A stretch of 64,000 nucleotides of DNA from Gemmatimonadaceae bacterium (GTDB lineage Bacteria > Gemmatimonadota > Gemmatimonadetes > Gemmatimonadales > Gemmatimonadaceae), in the NCBI GenBank assembly GCA_019637445.1, contig JAHBVS010000001.1:965586-1029585 (forward strand), in the 5' to 3' direction. Shown piece after piece: positions 3,016 through 64,000 of this stretch; the stretch's first letter is position 1; each line of letters opens with the position of its first letter. A program made the position numbers and the translations under genes. A model generated the notes under the pieces. It did not search any database. It was not told where the DNA came from and was given only the letters and a program-made list of their open reading frames with translations.

Positions 3016-3081
3016 GGCGTGCACGCTCCCCCAGGGTCCGCGCGCTGGCGCCGCTTCCCGCACGCGACGAAGTTTCGCGCC

Positions 3082-47700: not shown

Positions 47701-50414
47701 GCTGGCCGGGCTTCGCAGAGATTGTGTGGAACGGCTCGGTCAGCGTGGACTGGTTTGATCCCGACAACTGGGTGCAGGGTGTGGTGCCGACCGCGGCGGA
47801 CTCGGTAGTCATCCCGCAAGTCGCGACGATGCCGACCATCTCGGCGCCGGCCACGGTGCGCGTGCTGCTGCACCAGGCGAACCCGGGCGTGGTCGGGGTC
47901 AACGATGTTCTCACGATCCTCGAGCGCGTCTCGGCAGGCTCAGACGGCGCCGGGCTGCAGTGCGGCCCCGCCGGCCGCATTGTGTTCGCCCCCACGGACA
48001 CCCTGCTCTTCACCGGCGACTTGCTGGGTTGCGATGTGCGCGTGACATCCGGCGTCGCGGCTCCCGCTGGCTACAGCAGCGTGGGCGACAGCCTCGAGAT
48101 CACCGGCACGGCGCAGCTGGATCTGCGCAACCAGGAGCTCTTCGTTTCCGGCGACTTGGTCACGGATCAGCAGGGCACGCTGCGGATGACGGATCCAGCC
48201 GCCACGCTCTACGCCAACGGCGGCGCGTTCTTCCACGGCGGGTCGACGGCCGGCCTGCTCACCGCTGGCACGATCTTCCTCAGCGGGGAGTTCCAGCAGC
48301 TCGCCACATACAGCGCAGAGGCGTTTGCCGCTGACCCTGGCCACCTCACACAGCTTACGGCGAGTGTCCTGCAGCCGAACTTCTTCGCCACCCCGGAGCT
48401 CGGCGCCGGCAGCTCGCACTTCGGCGACCTGCAGCTCGAGACCCCGGAGTGGTACCTGCAGTCCCCGACCGCCGTCAGCGGTTCGCTGATCCAGCCCGTC
48501 GGCGGGCCGAATGCCGTGGTGTCCTCGGCGTCGTCGCAGGTACTGGCGGTCCAGGGCCTCAGCGTCGAGCGCGACCTCACGTTCCGCGGCGTGCACCTCC
48601 AGATCGCCGGCGCGGCGCCGATGACCCTCACCGGCAACCTCACCTTCGAGCAGATGGTGGGGACAATGCCGCAACTCGACCTTGAGCGCGCGGGCGACAC
48701 GCTCACGGTCGGCATCCTGACCTTCGATACGACTGCGTCACACACGGGGCCGTTCGTCGACGTGCAGGACATCTCCGTCGATGGTGACTCGCTGACCTTG
48801 CTCGCCAGTGCCATCACGCCACTGTACCACGGCGGGCGTCTCGCGGTGCTTGGCGAAGGTCGCGTTCCCGGGTGGGACGCCGCGGAGCCCGGCGCCTTCA
48901 CGCCGAACTATTGGACAGGCGGCGGCGCGGACGGCCTCTGGGCCACGGCCGCCAACTGGAGCGAAGGGCGTGCGCCCCTGGCAATGGACAGCGTAGTCAT
49001 CAATCCCGGCGGGCCGGTGACGGTCACGCTCGACGCCAACGCGGACGTGGCCTACCTCCACGTCGGGGAGTCATCGGCCGTGGAGTTCCTGCACACGGCC
49101 GGGTTCGTCCTACAAATCGACAGCCTGTCGTTCTTCGGGACAACGTCCACCCTGCGCATTGGCGGCGGCGCCGAACTCACGGGCGACGGCAGCTTGGTGG
49201 TGTTTGGCAACCTGGACTGGCAGGACGGCTGGATGACGGGCTTCGGGAGCACCAGCGTGGCAGCAGGTGGGACGGCGACGCTGGGCTCGGTGGACGACAT
49301 CGTGCTCGACGACCGCGTGCTGTTGATCGGCGGCACGGCGACGATGGGTTCGGCCCAGCTGTTCGTGGAGAACTTCCCCACGCTCTACGTGATGGCGGGC
49401 GGCGAGCTCACGATCCCCGACACGCGCACGCTGACCGTGGGCACGGGCGATCCGTCGCTGTACGTGGACGGCACACTGCGCATCGCCGGCGCGCCGGCGG
49501 ACACGGTGCAGATCCACTGGTTCACCACCATTGGCCTCGATGGCGTCCTCGACGTGCAGAGCGGTACGCTGATCATGGTGTCGCCCTCATTGCTCTATGA
49601 CACCAACATCGCGGACGGGGCGGCGCTGAACCTGCGCGGCGCGGCCGAGTCGTACGGCACGATGAGCGTTTCCACGGGCGGGCGACTGCAGCTCGAATCC
49701 GGCGGCCTCGGCCCGGACACCGGTATCCACGCGTTCTATGGAAGCCTGACGGGCACCGGAGCGGTGCACGCCGTCAACGCGGTTTCGGTGAACGTCGAGG
49801 CGGGGATGGAAATCGACTCGTTGGTCGTGCAGAACGTGACGATGGAGTTCAATTCGCCGGTGGACACGATGTTCGTGGGACGAGGTGTGTACCTAGGCGG
49901 CGGGGTCTTCAGCGGAACGGGCGTGGTCGGCGTGCGGGAGTCGTTCGTCGGTCAGATCGGAAACATGGACGGCAGCGGGACGCTTGCGGTGTTGTCGGGG
50001 GCAACGGCAAGCCTGCAGGGCCCCGTGCGCGGATGGTTGCTGGACGTGGCGGGCACACTGGAGTGGGGCGACTGGAACTTGACCTTCTCGACAGATCCCA
50101 GCAGCGGGCAGTACACGTCGATGCTCGTCCGCAGCGGCGGCGTGTTCGACATCCTGCACGGCGCGACGGCCCGAGATCTCTCCGGCACGGGCACCGACAC
50201 CGCGCCAGACGCCAACGTAATTCAGGTGCTGGCTGGTGGTACTATCCGAAAGTCGAGCGGGACGGGAACCAGCACCATTCACGCGCGCGTGGAGATGGCC
50301 GGCACGTTCGAGTTCGTCTCGGGCACCATCAACGTACAAGGCACCTGCGACAACCCCATTCCAAGCGCGACCGGGTCCGGCACATTAACCGGTAGCTGCG
50401 GAGCGTACCCGTAA
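41775..50414 (+). CDS. Giant lipoprotein with ~11 invasin-like Ig repeats and beta-solenoid-like C-terminal modules
   Basis: The 2879-residue protein starts at TTG 41775 with a lipoprotein signal ending LLSLLSC (Cys23). Residues about 250-1375 hold 11 Big_1/invasin-type Ig repeats of about 100 residues, with lines such as VRVLDGFGNPVPGHTTTW. From 1377 three sections each begin with a WxG...W...NW..G..P..DSV.I motif (about 1377, 1985, 2377), followed by long stretches of short beta strands with glycine and aspartate, like a right-handed solenoid. No autotransporter barrel, LPXTG or T9SS-type C-terminus is present, so lipidation is the only visible anchor. It is probably a long surface filament or adhesin. 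It converges with the DUF72 gene. Confidence 0.85.
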   Translation: MRATAPGRLAIPAAVFLLSLLSCGREVTGPENGVFSGGRRVGALAVAPEYPSLMASVLGGSQVVPFERVRLVLRRTDGAVALDTLIAFPATVDSLTLAFLVPLPVNAPAEGVSMALAMAYINAAGDTVFRAGPQSVLVPPVRDGVTQPPVSTPIRYTGVGAGAASVQITPDTGTRVAGSSSGFTATALDGQSQPIAGTPLLFYTLDSTRASVTNPSTGATTWLPSRGTARIVAALPDGSRADTASISVTLPASQLVLGSGDLQTAPLGNPLGAPIVLRTLASDAVPVSGVIVSFAVSTGGGSLTVTTDTSDTNGEVSTGWTLGSAFGVQTITATAAGLSGSPLTVSATASAGAPAQLAVVSQPVAGVAGETLAPAIVIAVEDEQGNLVETFTGAVTLALPPAADATLGGTTTVNAVAGLATFNDLNLDIVGAYGLIATSGALTPDTTAAITVTAAAAARLTFITWPSGGVAGTTLAPTTTVRALDAFGNDATGFTGSISLQLLDGTGTLGGTTSVAAVAGVATFADLSVDLIGDAYTLRAFSGALQPDTTTAFTITPAAVAGLTLLGGDGQTAVAATLLPDVIALRTVDAFGNRVPGAGVTFSILTGGGDVVPPTTTADTSGRAVANWTLGATLGTQTLRVSLTGVPAVTLDVSATATVGPASQLVVTQQPADTVEAGATIPILVEARDALGNLVPTYVGTANITLLVNPTLTTLGGTTSAAFVGGVASLAPTIPASGAGYQFELSAGALSNATSAVFVVGAAAAATFEIVSGTPQSGQVGTAFPTPMVVRVLDGFGNPVPGHTTTWTSLAGASAVDAVTVLTDAAGEAQNGATFGTTAGDGQPGVGVTTAGLATVLQFDVDVAPGAPASIVLVDGNTQTETVDLPLPTPLSVRVTDGFGNGIAGVTVLWGVSAGQGQFTDTTSTTDAAGVASTVAILGTVAGAVQFEALVDGVAGSPVLFDATATPDIPVVVQALTGDEQTATAGAAYANPFVVRVEDIHGNPVPGVSVTFDVQTGAASFSDTTVVTDLNGEAQTTAVASSTAGAGTIGADAAGATPATFNVTITAATAFSLEYLLGDAQQDTVGVELADSLRVLVRDSFGNPVPNVSVDWAATGGSVSAATALTSASGEAAIAYTLGTVAGAQSATASVAGLSGSPVPFTMTAIAGAPSALVVVSAPDTVVSGVVPPPLEVEARDIHGNLVTWFVDDVTVTPTDAPDGAFTAGTTTRAAVGGVASFDDLVFGTPGPWLIEFASGDLTIGASLEVIPGPPASFTIESGNGQAGPTSALLPAPLVVRLLDALTNPVVGDTVIFTVTSGAGVLGNGFVVDTALTDANGDAQVTWTLGPDTLATQTVEAAYPGFTALAFTATPLPNVANRSWTGDALNGAWFDTGNWAGGVIPAATDSVLIPAGRPSYPDFGDLSGSDVTIGGLTVRSGANIAMDIGDLYVGGNVTVESPGGITSPGGRVIANGAGAHSIRGNIPLVVIADGGYALNGALITTLDLSITGGVLDVGLWTLGVGRDLFTSGVGALVMPAFSDVQVTRNASLQGDGSAGRLQGGTMTVQGDFSAGTTFAAAVDHTVNLVGVGLQTVAITDADTTYSATCSAACFGRLTSLKGIGDGGLVFASHAKAINGMQISGDTIGASGHTLIGAVTMDLNTTVVSAQRVAYSDNLLLGSTRIVDTLVAFNAGTPWPVVSVDAIPTLVAGARELNAVHSGAIIVGAGGALDIVGATEVGAGFYTRDNGVLQMSDAADTLVVAGSVEFAGGPSLLTNGALIVQGDFAQHTNADAFRAAPAHETVFAGNASFTVTFANPGFAPTESQFGTFVFEHPISSSMDIGSDIYASGALETRGNNPYWINGSNNRLLTRGAINVADVTFAAVQWELQDTQPVVGALFNLVFSGMDPAISQMRILRAGGTILLQSPTFDPVLSGGAYLEVEDGNPGDLDTLTVAISNPAPQLHGGGIIEANGARITGWPGFAEIVWNGSVSVDWFDPDNWVQGVVPTAADSVVIPQVATMPTISAPATVRVLLHQANPGVVGVNDVLTILERVSAGSDGAGLQCGPAGRIVFAPTDTLLFTGDLLGCDVRVTSGVAAPAGYSSVGDSLEITGTAQLDLRNQELFVSGDLVTDQQGTLRMTDPAATLYANGGAFFHGGSTAGLLTAGTIFLSGEFQQLATYSAEAFAADPGHLTQLTASVLQPNFFATPELGAGSSHFGDLQLETPEWYLQSPTAVSGSLIQPVGGPNAVVSSASSQVLAVQGLSVERDLTFRGVHLQIAGAAPMTLTGNLTFEQMVGTMPQLDLERAGDTLTVGILTFDTTASHTGPFVDVQDISVDGDSLTLLASAITPLYHGGRLAVLGEGRVPGWDAAEPGAFTPNYWTGGGADGLWATAANWSEGRAPLAMDSVVINPGGPVTVTLDANADVAYLHVGESSAVEFLHTAGFVLQIDSLSFFGTTSTLRIGGGAELTGDGSLVVFGNLDWQDGWMTGFGSTSVAAGGTATLGSVDDIVLDDRVLLIGGTATMGSAQLFVENFPTLYVMAGGELTIPDTRTLTVGTGDPSLYVDGTLRIAGAPADTVQIHWFTTIGLDGVLDVQSGTLIMVSPSLLYDTNIADGAALNLRGAAESYGTMSVSTGGRLQLESGGLGPDTGIHAFYGSLTGTGAVHAVNAVSVNVEAGMEIDSLVVQNVTMEFNSPVDTMFVGRGVYLGGGVFSGTGVVGVRESFVGQIGNMDGSGTLAVLSGATASLQGPVRGWLLDVAGTLEWGDWNLTFSTDPSSGQYTSMLVRSGGVFDILHGATARDLSGTGTDTAPDANVIQVLAGGTIRKSSGTGTSTIHARVEMAGTFEFVSGTINVQGTCDNPIPSATGSGTLTGSCGAYP
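42535..45900 (+). repeat. Array of ~11 Ig-like repeats within the 2879-aa lipoprotein gene
   Basis: Units of roughly 300 nt begin near 42535, 42835, 43140, 43455, 43755, 44065, 44380, 44680, 44975, 45280 and 45590. Each encodes a hydrophobic strand, a pattern like VRVxDxxGNPV and a small-residue strand. They differ enough to be individually recognisable. Confidence 0.75.
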
Positions 50415-50480: not shown

Positions 50481-51287
50481 TTAGAACAGCCCGAGCTGCT
50501 CGCCAAGCTGGGCAGGGTCCGTCGGCACCTGCCCCAGTGCCGCCTGCAGCCAGCGCACATTCGCCGGCGAATGCCCACTGAAGTGGTTGTTCACATACCC
50601 GTACACAGGCACGCGAACCGATAGCGCGGGCAGCACCTCGGCCCAGGCCTCCAACTCCGCCGTGCGATCCACCTGCACGTGTGAGTAGTCCGTGATCTTC
50701 CGGTCGGGTCCCATCCAGCGCACATAGGCGTGTGTCGTGCTCGTCGGCCGCGTAGCGAGCTCGAGCATCCACTTCCGCGGGATCCAGCGCGCATCGACCA
50801 AGGCCAGCGCCACGTTGCGCTGCGAGAGCAGTTCGTGCGTTCGCTCGTTGATCCAGCCCTTTTGCCGGAACTCGATGGCGAAACGGAGGTCGTCCGGCAA
50901 CGCGTGCAGGAAGTCCTCGAGCGGGTCAATCTCGTGCGGCGCGAAGTCAGGCCCGCACTGGATCAGGATGGGGCCGAGCTTGGGCCCGAGCTCCCGCGCC
51001 ACGTCGAAGAACCGCTGCGCAACCTCTAGCGCGCTCTCGTCGAAGCGCCGCTCGTGCGTGATCTCCTGCGGCAGCTTGAGCGCAAAGACGAAGTGCTCGG
51101 GCGTGCGGTCGCGCCATCCGCGCACGTTCTTGACCGCTGGGATGGCGTAGAAGGTGGAGTCAACCTCTACGGTATCGAAGGCCCGCGCGTAGGTGGCCAG
51201 AAAGTCCACCGCGCGGGTGCGGGCCGGATACATCGGCCCGACCCACGCGGGGTAGTTCCAACCCTGGCAACCGAGGTGCAGCGACAA
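50481..51287 (-). CDS. DUF72 family protein
   Basis: The 268-residue TIM-barrel-like protein matches DUF72: LHLGCQGWNYPAWVGPMYP at the start, EVDSTFYAIP, FALKLPQEITHE, LPDDLRFAIEFRQKGW, YVRWMGPDRK and VYGYVNNHFSGHSPANV. The family's function is unproven. TTG 51287 gives the normal family N-terminus and lies 4 nt after the TAA of the FN3 giant. An ATG at 51347 would overlap that gene by 56 nt and add unlike residues. It is last in the minus-strand operon and has no obvious link to the surface protein. Confidence 0.88.
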   Translation of the reverse strand: MSLHLGCQGWNYPAWVGPMYPARTRAVDFLATYARAFDTVEVDSTFYAIPAVKNVRGWRDRTPEHFVFALKLPQEITHERRFDESALEVAQRFFDVARELGPKLGPILIQCGPDFAPHEIDPLEDFLHALPDDLRFAIEFRQKGWINERTHELLSQRNVALALVDARWIPRKWMLELATRPTSTTHAYVRWMGPDRKITDYSHVQVDRTAELEAWAEVLPALSVRVPVYGYVNNHFSGHSPANVRWLQAALGQVPTDPAQLGEQLGLF

Positions 51288-51291
51288 CGCC

Positions 51292-54200
51292 TTACGGGAC
51301 GACCGGGCCGAGGTAGCGGATGATGATCTGGCCGTTCCCAACGCCAACCGCGGCGGTGTTCACCTGGTTGGTGCCGGTGTTGAGCGAGCCGCCGCCGCCG
51401 GCGACCCAACCGCCGTCGCCGCCGGAGTAGCCACCGCCACCGCCGCCGCCGTAGTCACCGTTGCCCGCGCCGCCGGCACCGAAGCCGCCCTGGGCGTCAT
51501 TCCCGCTGACGAGGGCCTGGGTGCCGCCGAGCAGTCCGTTGGCCCAGGAGCGGCCACCGAAGCCGACGAACGCGGCCCACCAGTCGGCGTAGTCATCGGC
51601 ACCATTGCCGAAGAACCCGCCGCCACCCGAGCCGTACGCATACGGCGACGTGAGCAGGCCGCCCAACCCGAGCTCGGTGGTCTTGACCGCGCAGACGTTG
51701 GACGGCGATTCGCCGCTGCCCACGCCGCCGTAGCCAACCGTGGTGGCATCGCAGCCATTCTGCGACGAACTCGCGCGCGCGCCAGCACCACCGCCGCCGA
51801 CAAGCAGCGGGGTGTTCGACATGTCGACGACGAAGCTGCCGCCGCCGCCACCGCCGTTCTGGTTACTGCCCTGACCCACGCCGGCCTGGCCCACCGCCAG
51901 CTGCAACTGCGTGCCCTGGCTGAACTCGAACTCACCGCGCATCGACGCGCCGCGTCCACCGACGAACAATGGATTGCCGTTCGCACCCTGCGCACCGACC
52001 GCGGTGATCTCATACCGCCCGGTGAACGGCAGCGTAAAGGTCTGGATGCCGCCGGCCACCGTGACACCGCCCGCCAGCGCGGTGCCCGTGTACGCCGTGT
52101 TGCACTGGGCCTGCGACGGCCCCGTCGCGCCGGCCTGCGTGCAGTTCGTGAAGGTGAACTCCGTATTGCCGACAATCACCGCAAAGGTGACGTTCGTGTA
52201 GGCCGAGAAGCCCTGGAGCATCACGTACCAGTCGCCCGCACCCGGGTTGGCGATCGTACAGGTCTCGACCGTCCCACCGATGTACGGGGCGCAGAGGGTA
52301 TCGCTCTCGAAGTAGTCGAGCACCTGCGGGCTCTGCCCGATCCGCAGGTACAGGTCCGGATCGCCGCTGCCGCCGAGCATCATCACGCGGAGCTGCGGCT
52401 GGCCGCCCGGAATCGAGAACACATAGTGGCGCTCCCCGCCGCCAACGTCGGAGATGCCGTTCACCACCGCGTCGTTCGCCACCTCGATCGGCGTGCGCGC
52501 CAGGCGCGCCGGCGAGTAGTCGCCGTTGCCGTCGGGGCTGACCGCACGCACGCGGAAGCGATACTCGGATGCCGGGTTGAGACCCGTCGCCGTGTACTCG
52601 CTAGCATTGGCCGCCGTTGTGCCGAGCAGCGCGAAGTCCGTGCAGGCCGCGCCTTCGCAGCCCTCGACCTCGAAGCCGCTCTCGAACGGCGCGTTGTCGG
52701 TCCAACGCAGCGTCACCGAGGTGCGGTCCGCCGTCTTGGCCACCGACGAGGCCGGAACCGGCAGGCCGGTCGACACCGCCGAGGCGTTCGACGGCAGCGA
52801 CGGACCCGCAATGTTGAAGGCTCGCACCACATACGTGTACGACGTCCCGTAGGTCAGGCCGGTGTCGTCATACGTCACGCTGTTCGGCGCGATATCCGCC
52901 ACCTGCGTGAAGTTGAGCGGGTCACCGCATCCGGTCTCGCAGCGGAAGACGCGGTATCCCGTCTCCGTGATGGCGTTATCGGTCCAGGTCAGGCGCACGC
53001 TGGTCCCCGACAGCGCCTGCGTCGCCAGGGCGGTGGCTGCCAGCGGCACGTTGGTGTTGGCCGCGGCGATGTTCGTGTAGCCCGCCGCCGGACCAATGTT
53101 GTTGAAGGACCGCACCCGGTACCGGTACGTCGTGTTGAGGCTGAGGCCCGTGTTGTTGTTGAAGGTCGTGATGTTCGGTCCAACCGTCGCCACCGGCGAG
53201 AAGTCGAGGCAGGCGGCACCGGCGCAGCGCTCGATCGAGAAGCCGCGCTCGTTGTCCGAGTTGTCGGTCCAGCTCAGTCCGATCGACGATCCGCTGAGCG
53301 TCGTGGCAGAAAGTCCGCTGGCGGCGGTGGGCACCACCATCGTCAGGTAGAACGTCGCCGATGGCGTCGAGTTGCCGATGGCGTTCGACGCCATCACGCG
53401 GTAGCCATAAGTCTGCCCCGGCGCGAGGCCGGCGTCATCGATGCGCAGCGTATCCGCGCCCGTCGTGCCGACCGTCACGTCAAAGACCACGCAGCCCACG
53501 CCGGCGCAGCGCTGCACCGTGAAGCCCGTCTCGTCAGTCGAGTTGTCCGTCCAGCCCAGGCGCGACTGCGTGCCCGAGAGCGCGAAGCCATCGAGAGCCG
53601 AGGGCGGGATCGGCACAATCAGCCCGACCGCGACCGCCGCCGAGTAGTTGCTCGTCCCGGCCGCGTTCACGTGCCGGACGCGGTACTCATAGGTCTCGCC
53701 CGGCGTCAGCGACTCGTCCAGATAGGTCACCGTCGGGCTGGTGACCGTCGTGACGGGCGCAAAGGCGCCGCAGGGGATGCCTTGGCAACGCTCAATCTCG
53801 GTGTCCGTCGCCAAGGTGTCGGCCGTCCAGGCAATCTGGATCGAGGTCGTGGACATCGCCTGCGAGGTCGTGATCAGCGGATCGCCAGGCAGGATGGTGT
53901 TCGCATACGCCACGTTGGTAAACGTGGTCACGCCGGCCAGGTTGCTGGCCTGCACGCGATAACGATACTCGTTGCCCACCGAGACGTCCGTATCGGAGTA
54001 GCCCGTGCCATCGGCGGCCACGGTCGCCACCTGCACGAAGTCAATGTCGTCCACGCAGGGCGAGCCGACGCAGCGCTGGACGATGAACTCGTCCTCGTTG
54101 CCCGAGTTGTCCGTCCAACTGATGTCGATCTGCGTGCCGCTGGTCGTCACGGCACTCAAGGCCGTCGGCGGCAGCGGGAAGTCCGTGCTGGCCGGGACCT

Positions 54201-57200
54201 CGGCCGAGAAGGCCGAGACGCCCGCCGCATTCGCGGCGTAGATGCGGTACTGGTAGTCCTCTCCGTCGGCGAGGCCCATATCCTGGTAGCTCGTCGCGTC
54301 GGCGCCGAGCGTGGCGACGAGCGCGTAGCTGCTGCAGCCAGCGCCCAAGCAGCGCTCGACGCGGTACTCGGCTTCATTGTCGGCGTTGTCCGTCCACGCC
54401 AGGTCGATCTGCGTCGCGGAGATGGTTGTGGCCGCCAGGTCCGTCGGCGCCGCCGGCGTGATGGTCGTGGCCGTGGCTTCCGCCGACACCGGCGAGTCGC
54501 CCGCGTCGTTGGAGGCGTAGACCCGATACGTGAACGACTCCTCGGGATCGAGCCCGGTGTCGCTGTACGCCTGGCTACCGGCGGGTAGCGCCGTCAGCAG
54601 CGAGAAGCTGCTGCACGCCGCCCCCACGCAACGTTCCACGGTATAGCCCGTCTCGTTGTCCGCCGCGTCGACCCAGGTCAACGCAATCTGCGAACCCGAG
54701 ACCGTAGTCGCGACCAAGCTCGTCGGCTGCGCCGGCACTGACGTGCTGATGGTCACCACCTCCGAGGGGTTCGAGACGCCATTCGCGTTCTCGGCCCGGA
54801 TGCGGAAGCGATACGTTGTCGCGGCCGCCAGTGAAGCGTCGGCATACACCGTCGCGTCGGCGGCGGTGGTCGCCGCCGGCGCGAAGTCCGTGCAGGCCAA
54901 GCCCGTGCAGCGCTCGACGACAAAGCCCGTCTCGTCACCGCTGTTGTCCGTCCAGCTCAGCGAGATCTGCGTGTCCGAATCCGTGTTGGCCATCAGGGCC
55001 GACGGAATCGACGGCACGTTGGTGATTGCCTGCTGCGGCGGCTCGGAGTACGCCGACGTGCCGGCACCGTTGATGGCGCGCACGCGGTACGCATACGTCT
55101 CACCCGGCGTCAGCGCCTCATCGAGATAGCTCGTGACATTGGCCCCGACTGTCGCGACGACAGCCGTCGGCGTGCACCCATCGCCCGCGCAGCGGGCGAT
55201 CTCGAAGCCCGACTCGTTGTCCGAGAGGTCCGTCCAGGCCAGCTCGATCTCCGACGGAGACGCCGACGTGGCGGTGAGCGCACTCGGCGCGGCCGGCAGC
55301 AGCGTCGACACGGTCACCTCGGTCGAATAGAACGAGGATCCGTTGCCGATCGCACGGACGCGGTAGCGATACTGCTCCTCGCCCGGCAGCCCGGCGTCGT
55401 CATACGACGTCGCGTCGGCGCCAAGCGTGGCGATCTCCGTGTAGTCCGAGCAGCCAGCGCCCGCGCAGCGCTCGACGCGATAGCCCGTCTCATCCGTCGC
55501 GTCGTCCGTCCATGAGAGGCTCGTCGAGGTTGTCGACGTGGCCACACCCGCAAGGCCGGTGGGCGTGGCGGGCACGGCGGTGGAGGCCTGGCCGGTGTTG
55601 CTGTAGCCGGAGGCACTCACGCCGTTGTAGGCGCGCACGCGATACCGGTACACGGTCCCCACCGAGAGATCGAGGTCAGAGTAGCTGACGGAGTTCTCAC
55701 CCGTCGTCGCCACCTCAACGAAGTCCGAGCAGGCTGCACCCGCGCAGCGCTCGATGCGGTAGCCCGACTCGTTGCCCGCGACGTCCGTCCAGGCGAGGTC
55801 GATCCGGTCGCCAAACACCGTCGTCGCGCCGAGGCCCGAGGGCGCCACCGGCGAGAAGGTGTTCGCCAGCACCGTCGGCGCGTAGGCCGACGCACCGGCG
55901 GCGTTGTAGGCGCGCACGCGGAACGAGTAGAAGGTGCTCAACGCCAAGCCGGTGCTCGAGAAGAAGGTCTCGTCCGGCCCGACCGTGCCCACTTCAATGA
56001 AGGACGAGCAGCCCGCGCCCGAGCACTGCTCGATACGGTAGCCGTCCTCGTTGTCGGCCGCGTCGGCCCAGGAGATGTCGATCTGCGAGCCGGAGATCAC
56101 CGCGGCGGTGACGCTCGCCGGCACGCCCGGCAGCAGCGTCGTCGCCTCGACCTCGGGAATCGCGTCCGAGGCGCCCGACACGTTGATGCCGAAGATACGG
56201 TAGCGATACGCCGTCTCCTCGGAGACCGAGAGGTCTTCGTAGATGTTCGTGTTGGGCGGGAGATCGATCAGCGTTGTGAAGTCCGTGCAAGACACGCCTT
56301 CGCAGCGCTCAATCCGGTACAGGTCCTCGTTCGGGGCGTTGTCGTCCCAGGCGAGGTTGATCTGCGTCGCCGAGACCGTGGTCGCGACGAAGTTCGACGG
56401 TGAGAACGGACGCAGCGTGTTCGCGCTGGCCTCCGCGGTGTAGGCCGAGTTCGCGACGTTGTTGATGGCGCGCACGCGGTAGCGGTACTCGCCATCCACC
56501 GGGACGCTCGTGTCCTCGTAGCTGGCGCTGTTCGGCGGCAGCGACACGATCTCCGCGAAGTCGGAGCAGGCCGCGCCCGTGCAGCGCTCGACCGAGATCG
56601 AGAGCTCGTTGTTTGCGTTCTCCGTCCAGGCCAGGTCGATCTGCGTGCCGTTGATGGTCGTCGCCGACAGCGCGGTCGGGGCCGCCGGGGCGAAGGTGTT
56701 CGTCGACGAGACGTTGCTGTAGCCCGAGATGCCGTTGCCGTTCAGCGCCTGGACCCGATAGCTGTAGCTCTGGTCGGCCAGCGCGGTCCCGTCGGGATAC
56801 GACGTATTGTTGGGGCCGAGCAGCGCGATCTGGGCAAAGCTCACGCAACCGGCGCCGACGCAGCGCTCGATGATGTACTGCGTCTCGTTGTTCGCGTTGT
56901 CCGTCCACGCGAGGTTGACCTGCGTGGCCGAGGCCGCGACGGCCGTCAGGTCCGACGGATCGGCGGGCAGGTTCGTCTCGGCCTGGGCGGTGCCGGAGTA
57001 CGCCGACATGCCGACCGCATTCACGGCACGTAGGCGGTAGCGGTACAACACGCCGGCCGTGAGGCCCGCATCCGTGTACGCCACGGCGCTGGCCCCGGTG
57101 GTGCCGACGAGCACGAAGTCCGAGCAGGCGGCGCCTTCGCAGCGCTCGACCTCGAACGCGGTCTCAAACGGCCCGTTGTCCGTCCACGCGAGGTCGATCC

Positions 57201-60200
57201 GCGTCGACGAGAACGTCGTGGCAACCAGGGCGCTCGGCGCGTCCGGCAGGAAGGTGTTCGCCGAGGTCACGTTCGAGACCGGCGACCAGCCCACCGCGTT
57301 GTTCGACAGCACGCGGTACGCGTAGTAGAGATCCGGCGCGACCGTATCATCAGTGTACGAGGTCGAGTCGCGCGGCACGGCCCCGATCTGCGCGAAGTCC
57401 ACGCAGGCCTGGCCCGTACAGCGCTCGATCACGAACTCGTTCTCGTTGTCCGAGGGGTCCGTCCAGCTGATCCCGATGGACGTCCCGGACAGCGTCGTGG
57501 CGATGGCGTTCGACGGCGCCGCGGGCGCGGCCACGAGGATCGACACCGGGGCCGTGTAGGCGGAAAGATCGGCGAAGTTCGAGTGCGCGACGCGGTACCG
57601 GTAGGTCAGGCCCGGCGTGATGGTCGCATCCTCGAAGACCTGCGGATCGGTGGCCAAGACAGCCCCGACCTGGGCGAACGACAGGCAATCGACGCCCTCG
57701 CAGCGCTCGATGATCGTGGAGACGACCGGTCCCACAGCCGGATCCACGCCGACGGTCCAGTAGACCTGGACGGTGGCCGGGTTCGCGACCAGCGTGAGCT
57801 CCGTCGGCACCGGCGGATCCTGCGTGCTCACCGTCGACAGGGCGGAGAACCCGGAGAAGCCCGAGGCGTTGAACGCGCGCACGCGATACGTGAAGCGCGT
57901 GTCCGCCGACAGGGTGAGGTCGGAGTAGACCACGACATCCGCACCGACCGTCGCGATCTCCGTGAAGTCCGTGCAGTCCACGCCGTCGCAGCGCTCGATG
58001 CTGAAGCCCGCTTCGTTGTTGGACTCGTCCGTCCAGACCAGGTCGGCCGAGGTCTCCGTCGTGGTCGTGGCCGCGAGGCCACTCGGCGCCGTCGGCACGA
58101 AGGTCGTCGAGGTGGCCTCGTTGGTCGGCGCCGAGCGGCCGAACAACGTTGCCGCGCTCACGCGATACGTGTAGGACTCGTCCGCCGAGAGGCCGGTGTC
58201 GTTGTACGCCACCACATCGGCCGGCAGCGAGTCGAGCACGGTGAAGTCCGCGCAGGCCGCACCGACGCAGCGCTCGATGACGAAGCCGTTCTCGTCACCC
58301 GAGTTGTCCAACCAGGCCAGTGCGATCTCCGTCTGGCTCTGGGTCGTCGTCACCAAGGCCGTCGGCGCGTTGGCGACGATCGTCGCCAGGGCCGCGGCCG
58401 CCGTGTAGTTCGACGGCCCGACGTTGTTGACGGCCCGGACGCGGAAGAAGTAGAGGGTGTTCGCCACGACTGAGGCGTCCACGAAGGCCGTGGAATCCGC
58501 CGCCGGGATGGCGTACGACTCCACGATGTTCGAGCAGTCGGACAGGTCGCAGCGCTCGAGCGTGAAGCCCGTCTCGTTGTCGGCGTTGTCCGTCCAGGTG
58601 ACGAGCACCTGGCCCGTGGTGACCGAGTAGCTCAGGCCCGTCGGGTCGGCCGGCGTGCGCGTGTTGGCCGCCACCGTGTCCGACGGCGCACCCGTGCCCG
58701 ACACGTTCAGCGCGCGAATGACATAGCGATAGTCGTTGCCCGGCGTGACGGTGATGTCCGAGTAGACGCCGTCCGCCGGGTCTGCCGTGTCGATGACCGT
58801 GAGGTTCGTGCAGCCGACGCCCGTGCAGCGCAGGATCTCCTGCGAGGTCACGTTCGGGCCTGTGGAGAGCGTCCAGAAGAGGTTGATCTCGGTGCCCGAG
58901 GTGACCCCAGAGAACAAGGTCGCCGGCGCGGTCGGGACCTGCGTCGTCGCCGTGGCCGGACCGGCGTAGGCCGACGATCCAGATGAGTTGGTCGCGCGGA
59001 TCTGATACTGGTAGACGTTGCCCTGCGTCACCGTGCCGTCCGAGAACGCGGTGATCCCCGGCGGCAGCGTCTGCAGAGGCGCGAAGTCCGCGCAGCCTGC
59101 GCCGGTGCAGCGCTCAATCTCGATCTGCGTTGCGTTCGTGGTGTTGTTCGTCCACGCCAGGTCCACCTGCGTGGCTGAGACCGCGACTGCCGTCAGCGTG
59201 CTCGGCGCAGCAGGCAGCTGGGTGTTGGCCGACGCCGTGTTCGAGAAGCCGGAGTTGCCGGCCAGGTTGAACGCGCGGAGACGGTACTCGTAGTCCGCGC
59301 CGGCGGTGGCACCGACATCGGAGTAGTTGAAGACATCGGCCGCGACCGTGTCGTAGGGCGTGAAGCCCACGCAGCCCACGCCGGTGCAGCGCTGGATCTC
59401 GAAGCCGTTCTCGTTGTTCGAGGCGTCCACCCAGGCCAGGTCGATGCGCGTGGCGCTGATGGTCGTCGCCGACAAGGTCGTCGGCGCATCCGGCAGCAGC
59501 GTGTTCGCCGTGGCGATGTTGGTGTAGGCCGAGTTGCCGGCCACGCCCGTGGCCCGCACCTGGTAGCGGTACGTCACGCCGACAACGACCGTCAGGTCGG
59601 AGAACGACACCGGGGTCGTCGCCACCGTGTCGATCGCCGCGAAGCCCGTGCAACCGCCGCCTGAGCAGCGTTCGATGATGAAGCCGGTCGACGGCGCGTC
59701 AGCGATCGACGCATCCGTCCAGGCGAGATCGATCCGCGTGCCGTTTACGAGCGTAGCTGTCAGCGTCGTCGGGGCCAGCGGCGCGCGCGTGTTTCCCGCG
59801 ACGATGGTCGAGGTCGCCGTGGACACCACCGCATTGAAGGCGCGGATACGGTAGCCGTAGTCGTTGCCGAAAGTGACGCCCGTGTCCTGGAAGCTGGTGA
59901 CGTTGGACGCGACGTCGGCGACCTGCGCGAAGCCCGTGGTGCAGCCCGCGCCGGTGCAACGCTCGATGCGATAGCCGGTTTCCGTTGTGGCGTTGTCGGT
60001 CCAGCTGAGGTCGATCCGCGTGCCGCTGACCGTCGTGGCCGTGACACCCGTGGCGGTGGCCGGCGGGATGGTGTTGGCCTCCTCCTCCGTGGAGTAGGCC
60101 GAGGCCATCACGTTGTTGATGGCGCGGACGCGATAGCGATAGGTCTGGTTGTAGACGATGCCCGTGGTGTTGCTGTAGCTCGTCGCGCCGGCCGGTAGCG

Positions 60201-61644
60201 TCGCGATGTTCGTGAACGTGTCGCAACCCGCGCCGGCGCAGCGCTCGACTTCGTAGCCCGTCTCGTTCGTCGCGATGTCGTTCCACGCGAGGTCGATCTG
60301 CGTGACGGACACGGTCGTGGCGGCCAGCCCCGTGGGCGCCGCCGGACCGAAGGTGTTTGCGGCGACCACGGCGGTCGCGTTCGACGTGCCCACCGCGTTG
60401 AGCGCGCGCACGCGCCAGCGGTAGTTGTTGTCTTGCGTCAGCGCGTCGTCGCTGTAGGCGACGGTGTTCGCCGGGACCGTGTCAACGGGCGCCGGCGTGC
60501 AGGTGGTGCCCAGGCAGCGCTCGATAATGAAGCCCGTCTCGTTGTCCGAGTTGTCGGTCCAGGTGAGGTCCACCTGCGTACCCGAGGCGACCGTCGCGCC
60601 CAGCGCGCTCGGCGCCAGCGGTAGGCGACGGATCTCGACCGTCAGTTCATAGTGGCCAACGGTACTCGGCGCGACGCCGTCCACGCGGAGCTTGTGCACC
60701 TCCGTGTTGGTCGGGACAAACACGAGCCGCGAGTCGCTACCCGCGCCGTTGTCGTCCTGCGCCACCTGCGTGACTGAGTCATTGCGGAACAGCGTGACGC
60801 GCGTGTCGAGCGGCGACGGGTTCTCGGTGAGCCGACGCGCCCGCGTCTCCACGAAGAGCGAGTCGCCAGCGCGGAGATCGACGTTGTACCAATCAGACGG
60901 CTTGGCACCGGTGAGATTGCGACCCGTGACGACTTCCGGCTGCTCCGGGACCAGCGGCGGCAGCGGCACTGGCGCTGCCTCCACCACGTTCCATTGCCGG
61001 GTATTCGACCACGGCACGTCATCCGCGTTGAGGCGCGGGAACGTCGCACGACCACGTACGAACCAGGTGCCGGGCCCCGTGACTTGGATCAGGGCCGGCA
61101 ACTCGCTGGGAGCGAACAAGCGCGTCGTGCCGGGATCAGTCGCAAAGGTCGCGTCCGTGGAGTACTGCAGGGTGTATCCCGTCGCGGCCGGCAACGTGGC
61201 GAACGGAATCCGCTGCGTGAAGCTCGACACGTCCGGAATGGCGGGAATGTCGAGCGCGGGCGCCGCCTCGGCGTACGGCACCGTCGGCGTGGACGTCTGG
61301 CCGCGCTGTACCTGCACGCCTGCCACCCGCCCGTAGTACTGCACCTGGCCGAGTGCCCGGCCCTCGATGATCAGCTCATAGCTGCCCTCGGGCAGCCCGT
61401 TGATTCGGCCCGTCCAGTTGCCTCCCGACTGCGTGAGGTCCACGCTCCGCGTCTCGGTGCCGAACACGCGCGCCGTGACCGAGGTCGGCTGTACGACGTT
61501 TGCGACCTTGCTGGTGTCCAACCGCACCAATTCGATGCGCGGTGCGATGTGGCCCTCCGTCGGTGCGCGCAGCGGCGCATCGCAGGAGACCAGGAGGAGA
61601 GCCGCGACGGACCCAGCGGCGAAGCCAAGATGACGGCGATTCAT
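51292..61644 (-). CDS. Giant lipoprotein: 29 fibronectin type III modules, PPC domains, ALK/LTK-like glycine-rich C-terminus
   Basis: The 3450-residue protein has a lipoprotein signal (LLLVSC, Cys21). A PEGA-like beta domain (about 40-105) and a second sandwich lead to a PPC-like domain (about 235-335). Then come 29 FN3 modules of about 94 residues (about 338-3055), nearly all reading IDLAWTDN..E.G..IERCxGxxCxxF with a CX4C pair. A second PPC domain (about 3055-3165; GDPDLYLRIGQSP, TIANPGAGDWYVML) is followed by a glycine-rich domain (about 3165-3450) with GRYEITAVGAQGANG, QLQLAVGQAG, PLLVGGGGAGA and long Gly runs, like the glycine-rich domain of ALK/LTK. It is probably surface-exposed. It starts 15 nt after the pseudoprotease-like gene, in the same operon. 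Confidence 0.9.
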   Translation of the reverse strand: MNRRHLGFAAGSVAALLLVSCDAPLRAPTEGHIAPRIELVRLDTSKVANVVQPTSVTARVFGTETRSVDLTQSGGNWTGRINGLPEGSYELIIEGRALGQVQYYGRVAGVQVQRGQTSTPTVPYAEAAPALDIPAIPDVSSFTQRIPFATLPAATGYTLQYSTDATFATDPGTTRLFAPSELPALIQVTGPGTWFVRGRATFPRLNADDVPWSNTRQWNVVEAAPVPLPPLVPEQPEVVTGRNLTGAKPSDWYNVDLRAGDSLFVETRARRLTENPSPLDTRVTLFRNDSVTQVAQDDNGAGSDSRLVFVPTNTEVHKLRVDGVAPSTVGHYELTVEIRRLPLAPSALGATVASGTQVDLTWTDNSDNETGFIIERCLGTTCTPAPVDTVPANTVAYSDDALTQDNNYRWRVRALNAVGTSNATAVVAANTFGPAAPTGLAATTVSVTQIDLAWNDIATNETGYEVERCAGAGCDTFTNIATLPAGATSYSNTTGIVYNQTYRYRVRAINNVMASAYSTEEEANTIPPATATGVTATTVSGTRIDLSWTDNATTETGYRIERCTGAGCTTGFAQVADVASNVTSFQDTGVTFGNDYGYRIRAFNAVVSTATSTIVAGNTRAPLAPTTLTATLVNGTRIDLAWTDASIADAPSTGFIIERCSGGGCTGFAAIDTVATTPVSFSDLTVVVGVTYRYQVRATGVAGNSAYTNIATANTLLPDAPTTLSATTISATRIDLAWVDASNNENGFEIQRCTGVGCVGFTPYDTVAADVFNYSDVGATAGADYEYRLRAFNLAGNSGFSNTASANTQLPAAPSTLTAVAVSATQVDLAWTNNTTNATQIEIERCTGAGCADFAPLQTLPPGITAFSDGTVTQGNVYQYQIRATNSSGSSAYAGPATATTQVPTAPATLFSGVTSGTEINLFWTLSTGPNVTSQEILRCTGVGCTNLTVIDTADPADGVYSDITVTPGNDYRYVIRALNVSGTGAPSDTVAANTRTPADPTGLSYSVTTGQVLVTWTDNADNETGFTLERCDLSDCSNIVESYAIPAADSTAFVDASVVANTLYFFRVRAVNNVGPSNYTAAAALATIVANAPTALVTTTQSQTEIALAWLDNSGDENGFVIERCVGAACADFTVLDSLPADVVAYNDTGLSADESYTYRVSAATLFGRSAPTNEATSTTFVPTAPSGLAATTTTETSADLVWTDESNNEAGFSIERCDGVDCTDFTEIATVGADVVVYSDLTLSADTRFTYRVRAFNASGFSGFSALSTVSTQDPPVPTELTLVANPATVQVYWTVGVDPAVGPVVSTIIERCEGVDCLSFAQVGAVLATDPQVFEDATITPGLTYRYRVAHSNFADLSAYTAPVSILVAAPAAPSNAIATTLSGTSIGISWTDPSDNENEFVIERCTGQACVDFAQIGAVPRDSTSYTDDTVAPDLYYAYRVLSNNAVGWSPVSNVTSANTFLPDAPSALVATTFSSTRIDLAWTDNGPFETAFEVERCEGAACSDFVLVGTTGASAVAYTDAGLTAGVLYRYRLRAVNAVGMSAYSGTAQAETNLPADPSDLTAVAASATQVNLAWTDNANNETQYIIERCVGAGCVSFAQIALLGPNNTSYPDGTALADQSYSYRVQALNGNGISGYSNVSSTNTFAPAAPTALSATTINGTQIDLAWTENANNELSISVERCTGAACSDFAEIVSLPPNSASYEDTSVPVDGEYRYRVRAINNVANSAYTAEASANTLRPFSPSNFVATTVSATQINLAWDDNAPNEDLYRIERCEGVSCTDFTTLIDLPPNTNIYEDLSVSEETAYRYRIFGINVSGASDAIPEVEATTLLPGVPASVTAAVISGSQIDISWADAADNEDGYRIEQCSGAGCSSFIEVGTVGPDETFFSSTGLALSTFYSFRVRAYNAAGASAYAPTVLANTFSPVAPSGLGATTVFGDRIDLAWTDVAGNESGYRIERCAGAACSDFVEVATTGENSVSYSDLDLSVGTVYRYRVRAYNGVSASGYSNTGQASTAVPATPTGLAGVATSTTSTSLSWTDDATDETGYRVERCAGAGCSDYTEIATLGADATSYDDAGLPGEEQYRYRVRAIGNGSSFYSTEVTVSTLLPAAPSALTATSASPSEIELAWTDLSDNESGFEIARCAGDGCTPTAVVATVGANVTSYLDEALTPGETYAYRVRAINGAGTSAYSEPPQQAITNVPSIPSALMANTDSDTQISLSWTDNSGDETGFVVERCTGLACTDFAPAATTAADATVYADASLAAATTYRFRIRAENANGVSNPSEVVTISTSVPAQPTSLVATTVSGSQIALTWVDAADNETGYTVERCVGAACSSFSLLTALPAGSQAYSDTGLDPEESFTYRVYASNDAGDSPVSAEATATTITPAAPTDLAATTISATQIDLAWTDNADNEAEYRVERCLGAGCSSYALVATLGADATSYQDMGLADGEDYQYRIYAANAAGVSAFSAEVPASTDFPLPPTALSAVTTSGTQIDISWTDNSGNEDEFIVQRCVGSPCVDDIDFVQVATVAADGTGYSDTDVSVGNEYRYRVQASNLAGVTTFTNVAYANTILPGDPLITTSQAMSTTSIQIAWTADTLATDTEIERCQGIPCGAFAPVTTVTSPTVTYLDESLTPGETYEYRVRHVNAAGTSNYSAAVAVGLIVPIPPSALDGFALSGTQSRLGWTDNSTDETGFTVQRCAGVGCVVFDVTVGTTGADTLRIDDAGLAPGQTYGYRVMASNAIGNSTPSATFYLTMVVPTAASGLSATTLSGSSIGLSWTDNSDNERGFSIERCAGAACLDFSPVATVGPNITTFNNNTGLSLNTTYRYRVRSFNNIGPAAGYTNIAAANTNVPLAATALATQALSGTSVRLTWTDNAITETGYRVFRCETGCGDPLNFTQVADIAPNSVTYDDTGLTYGTSYTYVVRAFNIAGPSLPSNASAVSTGLPVPASSVAKTADRTSVTLRWTDNAPFESGFEVEGCEGAACTDFALLGTTAANASEYTATGLNPASEYRFRVRAVSPDGNGDYSPARLARTPIEVANDAVVNGISDVGGGERHYVFSIPGGQPQLRVMMLGGSGDPDLYLRIGQSPQVLDYFESDTLCAPYIGGTVETCTIANPGAGDWYVMLQGFSAYTNVTFAVIVGNTEFTFTNCTQAGATGPSQAQCNTAYTGTALAGGVTVAGGIQTFTLPFTGRYEITAVGAQGANGNPLFVGGRGASMRGEFEFSQGTQLQLAVGQAGVGQGSNQNGGGGGGSFVVDMSNTPLLVGGGGAGARASSSQNGCDATTVGYGGVGSGESPSNVCAVKTTELGLGGLLTSPYAYGSGGGGFFGNGADDYADWWAAFVGFGGRSWANGLLGGTQALVSGNDAQGGFGAGGAGNGDYGGGGGGGYSGGDGGWVAGGGGSLNTGTNQVNTAAVGVGNGQIIIRYLGPVVP
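52485..60630 (-). repeat. FN3 repeat array (29 units)
   Basis: Units of about 270-290 nt encode the FN3 modules of the 3450-aa lipoprotein. Each unit carries a codon run for ERCxGxxC that on the plus strand appears as recurring GCAGCGCTCGA-type sequences. Neighbouring units share protein motifs but are diverged at the DNA level. Confidence 0.85.
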
Positions 61645-61659
61645 ATAGGTGTCGTCGAC

Positions 61660-63270
61660 TTACGGTGTGACCGGCACGGAAATCGTGATCGAACCGCCTG
61701 AACTGCCACTGCCACCACCACCGCCACCGAGTGCGAGCGCGGCCGCGGCCCCTCCACCGATGATGGCCGCCCAGGCCCAGCGCGGCATCCCGCGCCGTTG
61801 CGGCTGCGCGGCGGCCTGCGCCACGACGAGCGGAACGGCCGCGCGGGTGGTCTGGCCCGCCACCACGGTGATCTCCTGCGTGCGCGACGGCACACCCGGT
61901 GCGGTCACTTCCATCCGATAGCGTCCACTCGCCGCGCGGAAGGTGAACGGTGCCGGCCCGTTGGCAGCCAGTTCCTCCCACTGCCAGGCCTCAAGCGGCG
62001 TCATCCGCACCGAGGCGTTCTGCGCGCCGGTGACGGTCACGACCACCGTGCCATAGCGGTGATTCTCCTGCGTGGCGACTTCCTGCGGCGTGCGCGTGTT
62101 CTGCGCGATGATGTTCTCTCGTGCGCGCGCGAGCAGGGGGCCGATCACCGTCGCGGGCGCGGCGCGCAGCCCGCCGCTCCACGTGCCGGCGTAGCGGCCC
62201 TGGAAGTCCACGAAGGGCGAACCGATGATCAGCGGCGGCAATGTGTCGAGCACCAGCGCGCCCTGCGGGCGGCCTTCCCAGCTTGCCAGCGAGGTCTGCA
62301 CGGCGCTCGGCGTGCTGCAGTTGGCGAGTTGCACGCCCCACAGGGCCTGCCCGTCGAGCAACATCTGCGCGTCGCCCGCGAGCGTGTCGGGGCGCGCGGA
62401 AGGCAGCATCAACACGGCGAGGTTTGCCGTGGCATCCCAGGCGGCGACGCGCACGGCGCCGTCGGCGTCCACGGCGTCGGCGCCGCGGATGGCGTGGTAC
62501 GAGGTGATGACGAGACGACCGCCATCGGCGGTGACGCCGGCCACGCAGGCCTGCGGCATGCCGAAGCGCGTGACATTGAGCGGCACGGTGGCGCGGAAGA
62601 GGCGGTCGCGCACGTCGTCGGCGATGACGTTGGATGCCGAGGAGACGAGCGTGAACGAGAACTCCGTGGTCACGCCCGGCAGGGCCTCACGACGAATGCG
62701 AAGCGGGAGGAAGCCCGTCGCACTGACTTCGAGGTCGTAGGAACCAGGCGGCAGCGAGCGGCCTGCGGCGCCGACCAGACCCACGCCCGTGACGAGCACC
62801 GTCACCGGTGTGCCCGACGCTGCGACCTGAAAGCGCGCCTCCGTCACCGTCGACGTCGCGTTCGGCCAGGTGTAGCGCGACTGTGAGAATGCATCGCCCG
62901 CTTCCGGCGTCACTTCGGTGCGCGCCTGCGCGAAGAGCGCGGGCAACGACGTGAGGAAGCCCTCGGTGAAGATCTGCATCTGCGGGTTCTGCCGGAGGGC
63001 CCAGCGCGCCCACAGCCCGGCCTGCTGCTGCTGCCCATCATCGACCAGTGTCTGCGTCAGCACGTGCACCGCGACTGACCAGGTACTGTCGAGCGGCCCG
63101 AGCGCGGGGTCGAGCGCCGCGCGCGCCAAGCGAATCGCGCGTTGTGTGTCGAACTCGTCGGTCGCGGCACGCGACTGGCTGATCAGGGTGGCGCGGTCCT
63201 GCGCCGCCGCGGACTGCGGTAGCAGGCAGGCAGCGACGAGAGCAAGCGCAGCAAGACGGAACGATCGCAT
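61660..63270 (-). CDS. Exported PEGA/trypsin-like protein, probably catalytically inactive
   Basis: The 536-residue product has a signal peptide (ending QSAAAQ), a helical TPR-like stretch (about 25-120) and a PEGA-like beta domain (about 145-210, LPPGSYDLEVSATGFLPLRI). The middle part resembles HtrA/trypsin: LVITSYHAIRG with His259 at the catalytic His, DATANLAVLML with Asn283 where Asp is expected, and LIIGSPFVDFQG with Ile349 at the usual Ser. A second PEGA-like domain (about 425-490), a transmembrane helix (WAWAAIIGGGAAAALAL) and a Gly/Ser tail follow. It is likely a periplasmic scaffold or binding protein. Its ATG overlaps the previous stop (TGATG). Confidence 0.72.
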   Translation of the reverse strand: MRSFRLAALALVAACLLPQSAAAQDRATLISQSRAATDEFDTQRAIRLARAALDPALGPLDSTWSVAVHVLTQTLVDDGQQQQAGLWARWALRQNPQMQIFTEGFLTSLPALFAQARTEVTPEAGDAFSQSRYTWPNATSTVTEARFQVAASGTPVTVLVTGVGLVGAAGRSLPPGSYDLEVSATGFLPLRIRREALPGVTTEFSFTLVSSASNVIADDVRDRLFRATVPLNVTRFGMPQACVAGVTADGGRLVITSYHAIRGADAVDADGAVRVAAWDATANLAVLMLPSARPDTLAGDAQMLLDGQALWGVQLANCSTPSAVQTSLASWEGRPQGALVLDTLPPLIIGSPFVDFQGRYAGTWSGGLRAAPATVIGPLLARARENIIAQNTRTPQEVATQENHRYGTVVVTVTGAQNASVRMTPLEAWQWEELAANGPAPFTFRAASGRYRMEVTAPGVPSRTQEITVVAGQTTRAAVPLVVAQAAAQPQRRGMPRWAWAAIIGGGAAAALALGGGGGGSGSSGGSITISVPVTP

Positions 63271-64000
63271 CAGGGTCGGGGCTGAAGCGTGATGTTGACG
63301 CGTTGTGGCGGGCCTGCGCGCAGCGTGACGGCCGTGTCCACCGTGACAAAGCCCTCGCGCTGGATCTTGATCAGGTGATCACCAGGCGTGAGCTGTTCCT
63401 GCAGCGTACGGCGCTCTCCCTTCGAGACGCCGTCGATGAAGATCGTGGCTGGCGTGGAAAGCACCAGCTGCAGCGTGGCCGGACCCGTTGGCGCTGCCTC
63501 GGCAGGCGGCGTGGCAGGCGTGGTCGCTGGCGTCGAGGCGGGTGTACTCGCCGGATTGCCCGTCGACGTATTCGCCGTGGTGTTCGGCTGCGTCTGCGGC
63601 GTCGTGGTTGGCCGATTCGGCGTGGTCGCCGGATTTCGAGTCGGCGAGTTCGTTGGATTGCGCGTCGGGTTCGTCGGCGGCGCTGACTTCTGGTTGCTCG
63701 GCGCCGGATTGTCAGCAGGCGGCGTCTGCGCCGCCGGTGCATTCACCGTCGTATCCGGCACGACAGGCGGCGGCGTCACCGTGGGATTCGCCTGCGTGCC
63801 CGTCGCAGAGTTCGGCTCACCATTCGCCACCTGCCCTGACGGCGCAGCCGACGCCCCACCACCAATCAACCCCATCTTCCACGCACCGAACCCACCACCG
63901 CCCAGCACAACCACAAGCGCCGCCGCCGCCAACGGCATCTTGCTCGACTTCGCCGGCGTCGGCGCCGTACGCGGCGCGGCCTTCCCAGCCGCCACCGGCG
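63270..64000 (-). CDS. Membrane protein with PEGA domain, C-terminal part (possible Ser/Thr kinase; continues beyond window)
   Basis: The frame is open to the window edge and encodes 242 residues, ending in a PEGA domain (about the last 75: LQLVLSTPATIFIDGVSKGE, LTPGDHLIKIQREGF). Before it are a proline/threonine/asparagine-rich linker of about 110 residues, one transmembrane helix (PLAAAALVVVLGGGGFGAWK) and a basic, Pro/Ala-rich juxtamembrane stretch. This layout (cytoplasmic part, single helix, disordered linker, PEGA) is common at the C-terminus of bacterial Ser/Thr protein kinases, but no kinase domain is inside the window, so this is only a proposal. It is the promoter-proximal visible gene of the giant-FN3 operon. 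Confidence 0.65.
   Translation of the reverse strand, partial: PVAAGKAAPRTAPTPAKSSKMPLAAAALVVVLGGGGFGAWKMGLIGGGASAAPSGQVANGEPNSATGTQANPTVTPPPVVPDTTVNAPAAQTPPADNPAPSNQKSAPPTNPTRNPTNSPTRNPATTPNRPTTTPQTQPNTTANTSTGNPASTPASTPATTPATPPAEAAPTGPATLQLVLSTPATIFIDGVSKGERRTLQEQLTPGDHLIKIQREGFVTVDTAVTLRAGPPQRVNITLQPRP

Follow-up and report, generated by a model that had tools for sequence, protein, structure and literature searches.

How events at the outer surface of a diderm bacterium are signalled to a Ser/Thr kinase in its inner membrane is mostly unknown. The locus described here raises this question in a concrete form, and does so in a phylum, the Gemmatimonadota, that is abundant but little studied. 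In the window, by which is meant the entire stretch of 64,000 nucleotides that was analyzed (C1:965586-1029585, from a genome of 3.35 Mb), a gene for a receptor-type kinase is followed by one for an apparently dead protease, and this by one for a giant lipoprotein. Do these three products work together at the cell envelope, and do they signal? The features needed for an answer are these.

63270..64000, minus strand: gene 1, receptor-type Ser/Thr kinase, the part inside the window; the gene continues to 65117 (L009:13856-15703) (genome sequence, Pfam)
61660..63270, minus strand: gene 2, predicted exported pseudoprotease, 536 aa (ORF, Pfam, AlphaFold, alignment)
62887..63195, minus strand: gene 2, N-terminal helical domain, putatively TPR-like, residues ~26-128 (AlphaFold, pLDDT mostly >90)
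62110..62637, minus strand: gene 2, S1C/HtrA-type domain, predicted pseudoprotease, residues 212-387 (fold and profile matches)
61828..62049, minus strand: gene 2, CarboxypepD_reg/PEGA-like domain, residues 408-481 (Pfam)
61720..61776, minus strand: gene 2, C-terminal hydrophobic segment, residues 499-517, then a Gly-rich tail (sequence, alignment)
51292..61644, minus strand: gene 3, predicted giant FN3 lipoprotein, 3450 aa (ORF, Pfam, lipobox)
60610..61584, minus strand: gene 3, lipobox Cys21 and conserved N-terminal module of beta-domain, FN3-like domain, and PPC (ortholog alignment)
52480..60609, minus strand: gene 3, array of about 29 FN3 repeats (Pfam, Cys-pair spacing)
51295..52428, minus strand: gene 3, second PPC domain (3073-3145) and Gly-rich C-terminal domain (Pfam, comparison)
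50481..51287, minus strand: DUF72 gene, a neighbour outside the conserved unit (Pfam E 6.8e-58)

Thus, four minus-strand genes stand in the order kinase, pseudoprotease, lipoprotein, DUF72 gene, and the tight junctions reported for them in the initial annotation were all borne out. At 63270, TGATG joins the TGA of the kinase gene to the overlapping ATG of gene 2; 15 nt separate the stop codon of gene 2 (61660) from the ATG of gene 3 (61644); and 4 nt lie between the TAA of gene 3 (51292) and a possible TTG start (51287) of the DUF72 gene. A scan for promoter consensus sequences, whose matches are weak evidence, gave a promoter-like site upstream of the kinase, a weak match inside the kinase gene, and no promoter-like site at the internal junctions.

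The fourth gene had been counted in the same coupled operon. It is, however, a DUF72 gene that is not conserved with the other three, and was rejected as an operon member because this flank is not kept with the triad among relatives; the flanking genes (SPFH, beta-lactamase-like, DUF72) are common at most to the two closest of these. Convergent with the DUF72 gene, and ending 66 nt from it, is an ORF of 2879 amino acids (41775-50414, plus strand) whose start resembles a lipobox (LLSC) and which carries Big_1 repeats and a weak match of G8 type, apparently a second giant surface protein.

Gene 1 is cut by the edge of the window, and only its tail had been available to suggest a receptor-type Ser/Thr kinase. 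The upstream genome sequence supplies the kinase domain and completes the gene (window positions 63270-65117). In its 615 amino acids, Pfam recognizes an N-terminal Zn_Ribbon_1, Pkinase at residues 69-313 (E 5.7e-46), and PEGA at residues 557-614 (E 1.7e-6). A hydrophobic segment at about residues 394-412 is predicted to cross the membrane; a Pro/Thr linker then leads to the PEGA domain. The catalytic motifs (VALK95, HRD189, DFG209) are intact, and VAxK, HRD, and DFG are likewise intact in all 11 kinases that were checked. With these motifs, a single transmembrane segment, and an extracytoplasmic sensor-type domain, gene 1 is, judged by its sequence, a bacterial receptor-type (Hanks) Ser/Thr kinase. 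Membership in the PASTA kinases (PknB/StkP) was considered and rejected, the protein scoring 295 bits against a family cut-off of 450 and carrying PEGA and no PASTA.

The gene 2 protein was modeled with AlphaFold on ten relatives (mean pLDDT 81.5). From N- to C-terminus, the model has a signal peptide, a helical domain, a beta-domain, the S1C domain, the CarboxypepD_reg/PEGA-like domain, the hydrophobic segment, and the Gly-rich tail. The helical domain, which has no Pfam match, would be TPR-like from its helix pattern. In a fold search, the S1C domain came closest to that of RsgI9 (7sjy; Z 21.5; 182 residues at rmsd 2.8), followed by DegS, DegQ, and AlgW (Z ~20-21, rmsd mostly 2.2-2.9 over about 170 residues); the lead of RsgI9 over several HtrA proteases is within 1 Z, and is to be read as a tie. 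Sequence profiles match Deg1 (1.5e-11) and RsgI9 (1.8e-8).

This protein had been described as exported and HtrA-like, with lost catalytic residues and PEGA domains. The S1C fold is indeed there, and so is the loss of two triad residues, Ser being replaced by Ile and Asp by Asn. The His, however, is present, and the C-terminal domain is a CarboxypepD_reg above the Pfam cut-off, with PEGA just below it. Among the ten family members aligned, the position of the catalytic Ser holds I, V, A, P, D, or a gap in every one; the His is kept in three and lost in seven, and the Asp is kept in four and is Asn in six. Because the Ser is absent from all ten, this is, by alignment, a family of pseudoproteases rather than a single decayed copy. 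The Pfam scan gave no PDZ in gene 2, and neither an RsgI-type anti-sigma domain nor an autocleaving periplasmic domain in any of the three products.

Past its hydrophobic segment, the gene 2 protein ends (L064-L079) in a short, beta-like motif of alternating hydrophobic residues terminated by Pro (GxIxIxVPNP, GxIxIxVPxP, and variants), which is kept even in distant members. A reading of this conserved tail as a phosphorylation site was abandoned, the Ser/Thr being kept in closer members and lost in distant ones.

Gene 3 fits its first description as a lipoprotein of 3450 residues with FN3 domains. It has a signal peptide with lipobox LLVS-C21, and is therefore classed as a lipoprotein, for which lipidation at the Cys and surface exposure are predicted. 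Pfam marks 25 fn3 stretches; the spacing of the Cys pairs, one of which is found in most repeats, gives about 29 units of ~93 aa. PPC domains lie near both ends; the C-terminal domain, rich in Gly, persists in one close relative, and other relatives have something else in its place. Modules of PEGA or PPC type had been said to be shared among the products; this holds for PEGA-like domains in the kinase and the gene 2 protein, while PPC occurs only in the lipoprotein. The composition of the protein is lopsided, with only 5 Lys in 3450 residues as against 342 Asp+Glu.

Only part of this lipoprotein is constant among relatives. The first ~345 residues (lipobox, a beta-domain, an FN3-like domain, and PPC) can be aligned between lipoproteins of FN3 type and RCC1 type, and many loci retain this module although their distal repeats differ. 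These repeats are FN3 at the window locus and in close relatives, RCC1 and Big_2 in L027 and L030, RCC1 in L032, L065, and L069, Big_2 and RCC1 in L070, and propellers in L071 and L072. Such a pattern would be expected of a protein that binds its conserved partners through a constant part and meets the environment with a variable one. A fold search with the N-terminal module returned only generic FN3 matches and domains of the PPC/collagen-binding type, and simple tblastn did not detect the module in the most distant loci. In L072, the third-gene protein (L072:9191-13432) has PD40 propeller repeats and also a Peptidase_M8 match of leishmanolysin type; there may therefore be enzymes among the surface modules.

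Has evolution kept these genes together? Among 61 relatives searched, the gene 2 protein was found in 9 of the 17 genomes of the genus and in three others from the order. Of 394 genomes of the class searched with a profile, 37 had the family, patchily distributed, about half of them with strong matches; in 395 genomes drawn from the phylum, strong matches lay only within the class. A locus was called strong at E < 1e-30 (n = 24), and the weakest profile matches (E about 1e-5 to 1e-12), mostly to the N-terminal helical part only, were left out as members. The relatives are mostly MAGs in which contigs may break, gene starts come from simple ORF calls, and locus counts are not counts of independent events.

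Read in this way, a kinase lies directly upstream on the same strand in 19 of the 24 strong loci, in most with overlapping stop and start codons. The other five comprise a contig end with a kinase tail still visible (L026), a locus adjoined by a divergent kinase (L072), and three with no kinase nearby (L066, L067, L069), which means that gene 2 and the lipoprotein can exist locally without it. Downstream of gene 2, a lipobox-type start was found at 17 loci in all, L067 among them and some by eye, and L065 has a homolog of the lipoprotein module whose start is masked; L075, which has the kinase, has no lipoprotein there. In L034, with a kinase directly upstream, a fusion joins the N-terminal module of gene 2 to gene 3-like repeats (RCC1 and Big_2). 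One genome (G290) has three copies of gene 2 (L066, L067, L068), with a kinase adjoining only one.

Thus, the order kinase-pseudoprotease-lipoprotein, which the initial annotation had asked to see in relatives, recurs across the class, including other families of the order, and cannot be set down to chance. Of the 17 genomes of the genus, nine have both gene 2 and the orthologous kinase (E < 1e-160), and the other eight have neither (Fisher p 4e-5, not corrected for phylogeny). The distance matrices of kinase and pseudoprotease are correlated (Mantel r 0.87, 0/5000 permutations), which shared descent alone would, of course, also give.

Three distant relatives without S1C (L077, L078, L079) encode a TPR-like membrane protein and then an exported protein of ~220 aa that looks beta-barrel-like by eye, two of these small proteins having no Pfam match. 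As L077 has a kinase directly upstream, and therefore the same order, the arrangement is possibly a simpler version of the triad theme.

A kinase domain upstream and a conserved gene order strengthen the idea that the products meet in an envelope apparatus. That idea is now partly supported; the products may interact physically, and may serve in adhesion or sensing. The conserved three-gene unit is probably a previously undescribed link between cell surface and intracellular signalling.

The form of that link that we favor, crediting it about as much as we doubt it, is a single trans-envelope signalling module running from the lipoprotein through the periplasmic pseudoprotease to the kinase, whose localization, contacts, direction, and ligand we infer. 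Here, the lipid at its N-terminus and the conserved N-terminal module would hold the lipoprotein at the outer surface, with the long exchangeable repeat region contacting what lies outside, be it a surface, a polymer, or another cell. Exported and tethered by its C-terminal helix to the inner membrane, the gene 2 protein would be a non-catalytic periplasmic adaptor, its dead HtrA-type and TPR-like domains binding the lipoprotein or the ligand without cutting. The PEGA domain of the kinase, on the periplasmic side, would receive the state of this adaptor, the kinase would phosphorylate cytoplasmic targets, and the signal would run from outside to inside.

In favor of such a module, we count the conserved order with its overlapping codons, the co-occurrence in the genus, the fusion in L034, the lack of conservation in the flanks, the precedent of the RsgI9 fold, and the order in L077. 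Against it, we count the three strong loci with no kinase nearby, the divergent kinase of L072 and the contig end of L026, L075 without a lipoprotein, and the basic residues preceding the C-terminal helix of gene 2, which in genus members fit the positive-inside rule poorly. Moreover, the genome encodes about 32 kinases, and the gene 1 kinase could simply co-regulate.

The main rival, which we consider unlikely, runs from the inside out: the HtrA-derived, TPR-like gene 2 protein would escort the lipoprotein and help to fold or export it, the kinase regulating its production or export. Members of the HtrA family do, of course, also act as chaperones, and the client is of extreme size, with Cys pairs in most repeats; moreover, gene 2 stays with the lipoprotein in the three loci where the kinase is missing. 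However, the distal repeats of this client change completely, from FN3 to RCC1, Big_2, or propellers, while the gene 2 partner is kept, gene 2 has neither PDZ nor a known chaperone domain beside its dead S1C, and this reading does not account for a kinase with a PEGA ectodomain of receptor type.

It is more doubtful still that an adhesin-like lipoprotein, an envelope protein, and a kinase share a transcription unit simply for joint expression, each acting on its own. Tight operon packing occurs also for proteins that never touch. Yet the overlapping junctions are conserved across families, genes 1 and 2 are present or absent jointly in the genus, and parts of the gene 2 and gene 3 kinds are fused in L034.

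An anti-phage or inter-bacterial conflict system, in which trypsin-like proteins and kinases also occur, is very improbable: patchy distribution and a match of the kinase domain to PD-T4-6 models (which ordinary Ser/Thr kinases would also give) speak for it, but the PADLOC search had no match for gene 2 or the lipoprotein N-terminal module, on which ground a defence role was rejected, each of the three products is either exported or in the membrane, the triad yielded no domain of NTPase, nuclease, or toxin type, and the described kinase/trypsin conflict systems are built on NTPases and effectors (PMC7159879) that the triad does not have.

A bolder reading is that of a new class of trans-envelope receptors, so far only in the Gemmatimonadota (beyond which the scans barely reached), in which a dead HtrA-type protein would have been recruited to the periplasm to couple a eukaryotic-like receptor kinase to an interchangeable surface receptor lipoprotein, one signalling core serving a variety of repeat ectodomains. 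This we offer tentatively. A conserved three-gene cassette whose surface modules can be exchanged and whose likely coupler is a dead protease is a concrete and testable system.

How does this compare with what is known? Each type of component is familiar; their combination and recurrent pairing appear not to have been described. No family in NCBIfam or PADLOC covers gene 2 or the lipoprotein N-terminal module, and searches of open-access papers turned up no system of kinase-pseudoprotease-lipoprotein composition. Gene 3 resembles other large surface lipoproteins with FN3, Big, or RCC1 repeats in its lipobox and long beta-repeat arrays, but its family differs in having a shared N-terminal module and a recurrent genetic partnership with gene 2. 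Residues 212-387 of gene 2 are like the HtrA/Deg (S1C) proteases in fold and sequence; however, the Ser is absent in all ten members and the His and Asp often, and TPR-like and PEGA-like domains are found in place of PDZ. Gene 1 shares with the PASTA-type kinases (PknB, PrkC, StkP) a Hanks-type kinase domain, a single transmembrane segment, and an extracytoplasmic domain of ligand type, but PEGA replaces PASTA, and dedicated envelope partners are encoded alongside.

A further parallel is offered by the SigI-RsgI biomass-sensing anti-sigma factors of Clostridium thermocellum. RsgI9, a membrane anti-sigma factor, has, like gene 2, an outer S1C protease-like domain, which is reported to bind polysaccharide (PMC12203970). 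RsgI9, however, is a single polypeptide that works through regulated proteolysis and a sigma factor, whereas the S1C domain of the triad is on a separate protein encoded beside kinase and lipoprotein genes, in the company of TPR-like and PEGA-like domains and no NTF2. If the proposed signalling module is correct, the triad would be a second case, beside RsgI9, in which an S1C protease-like domain serves in sensing.
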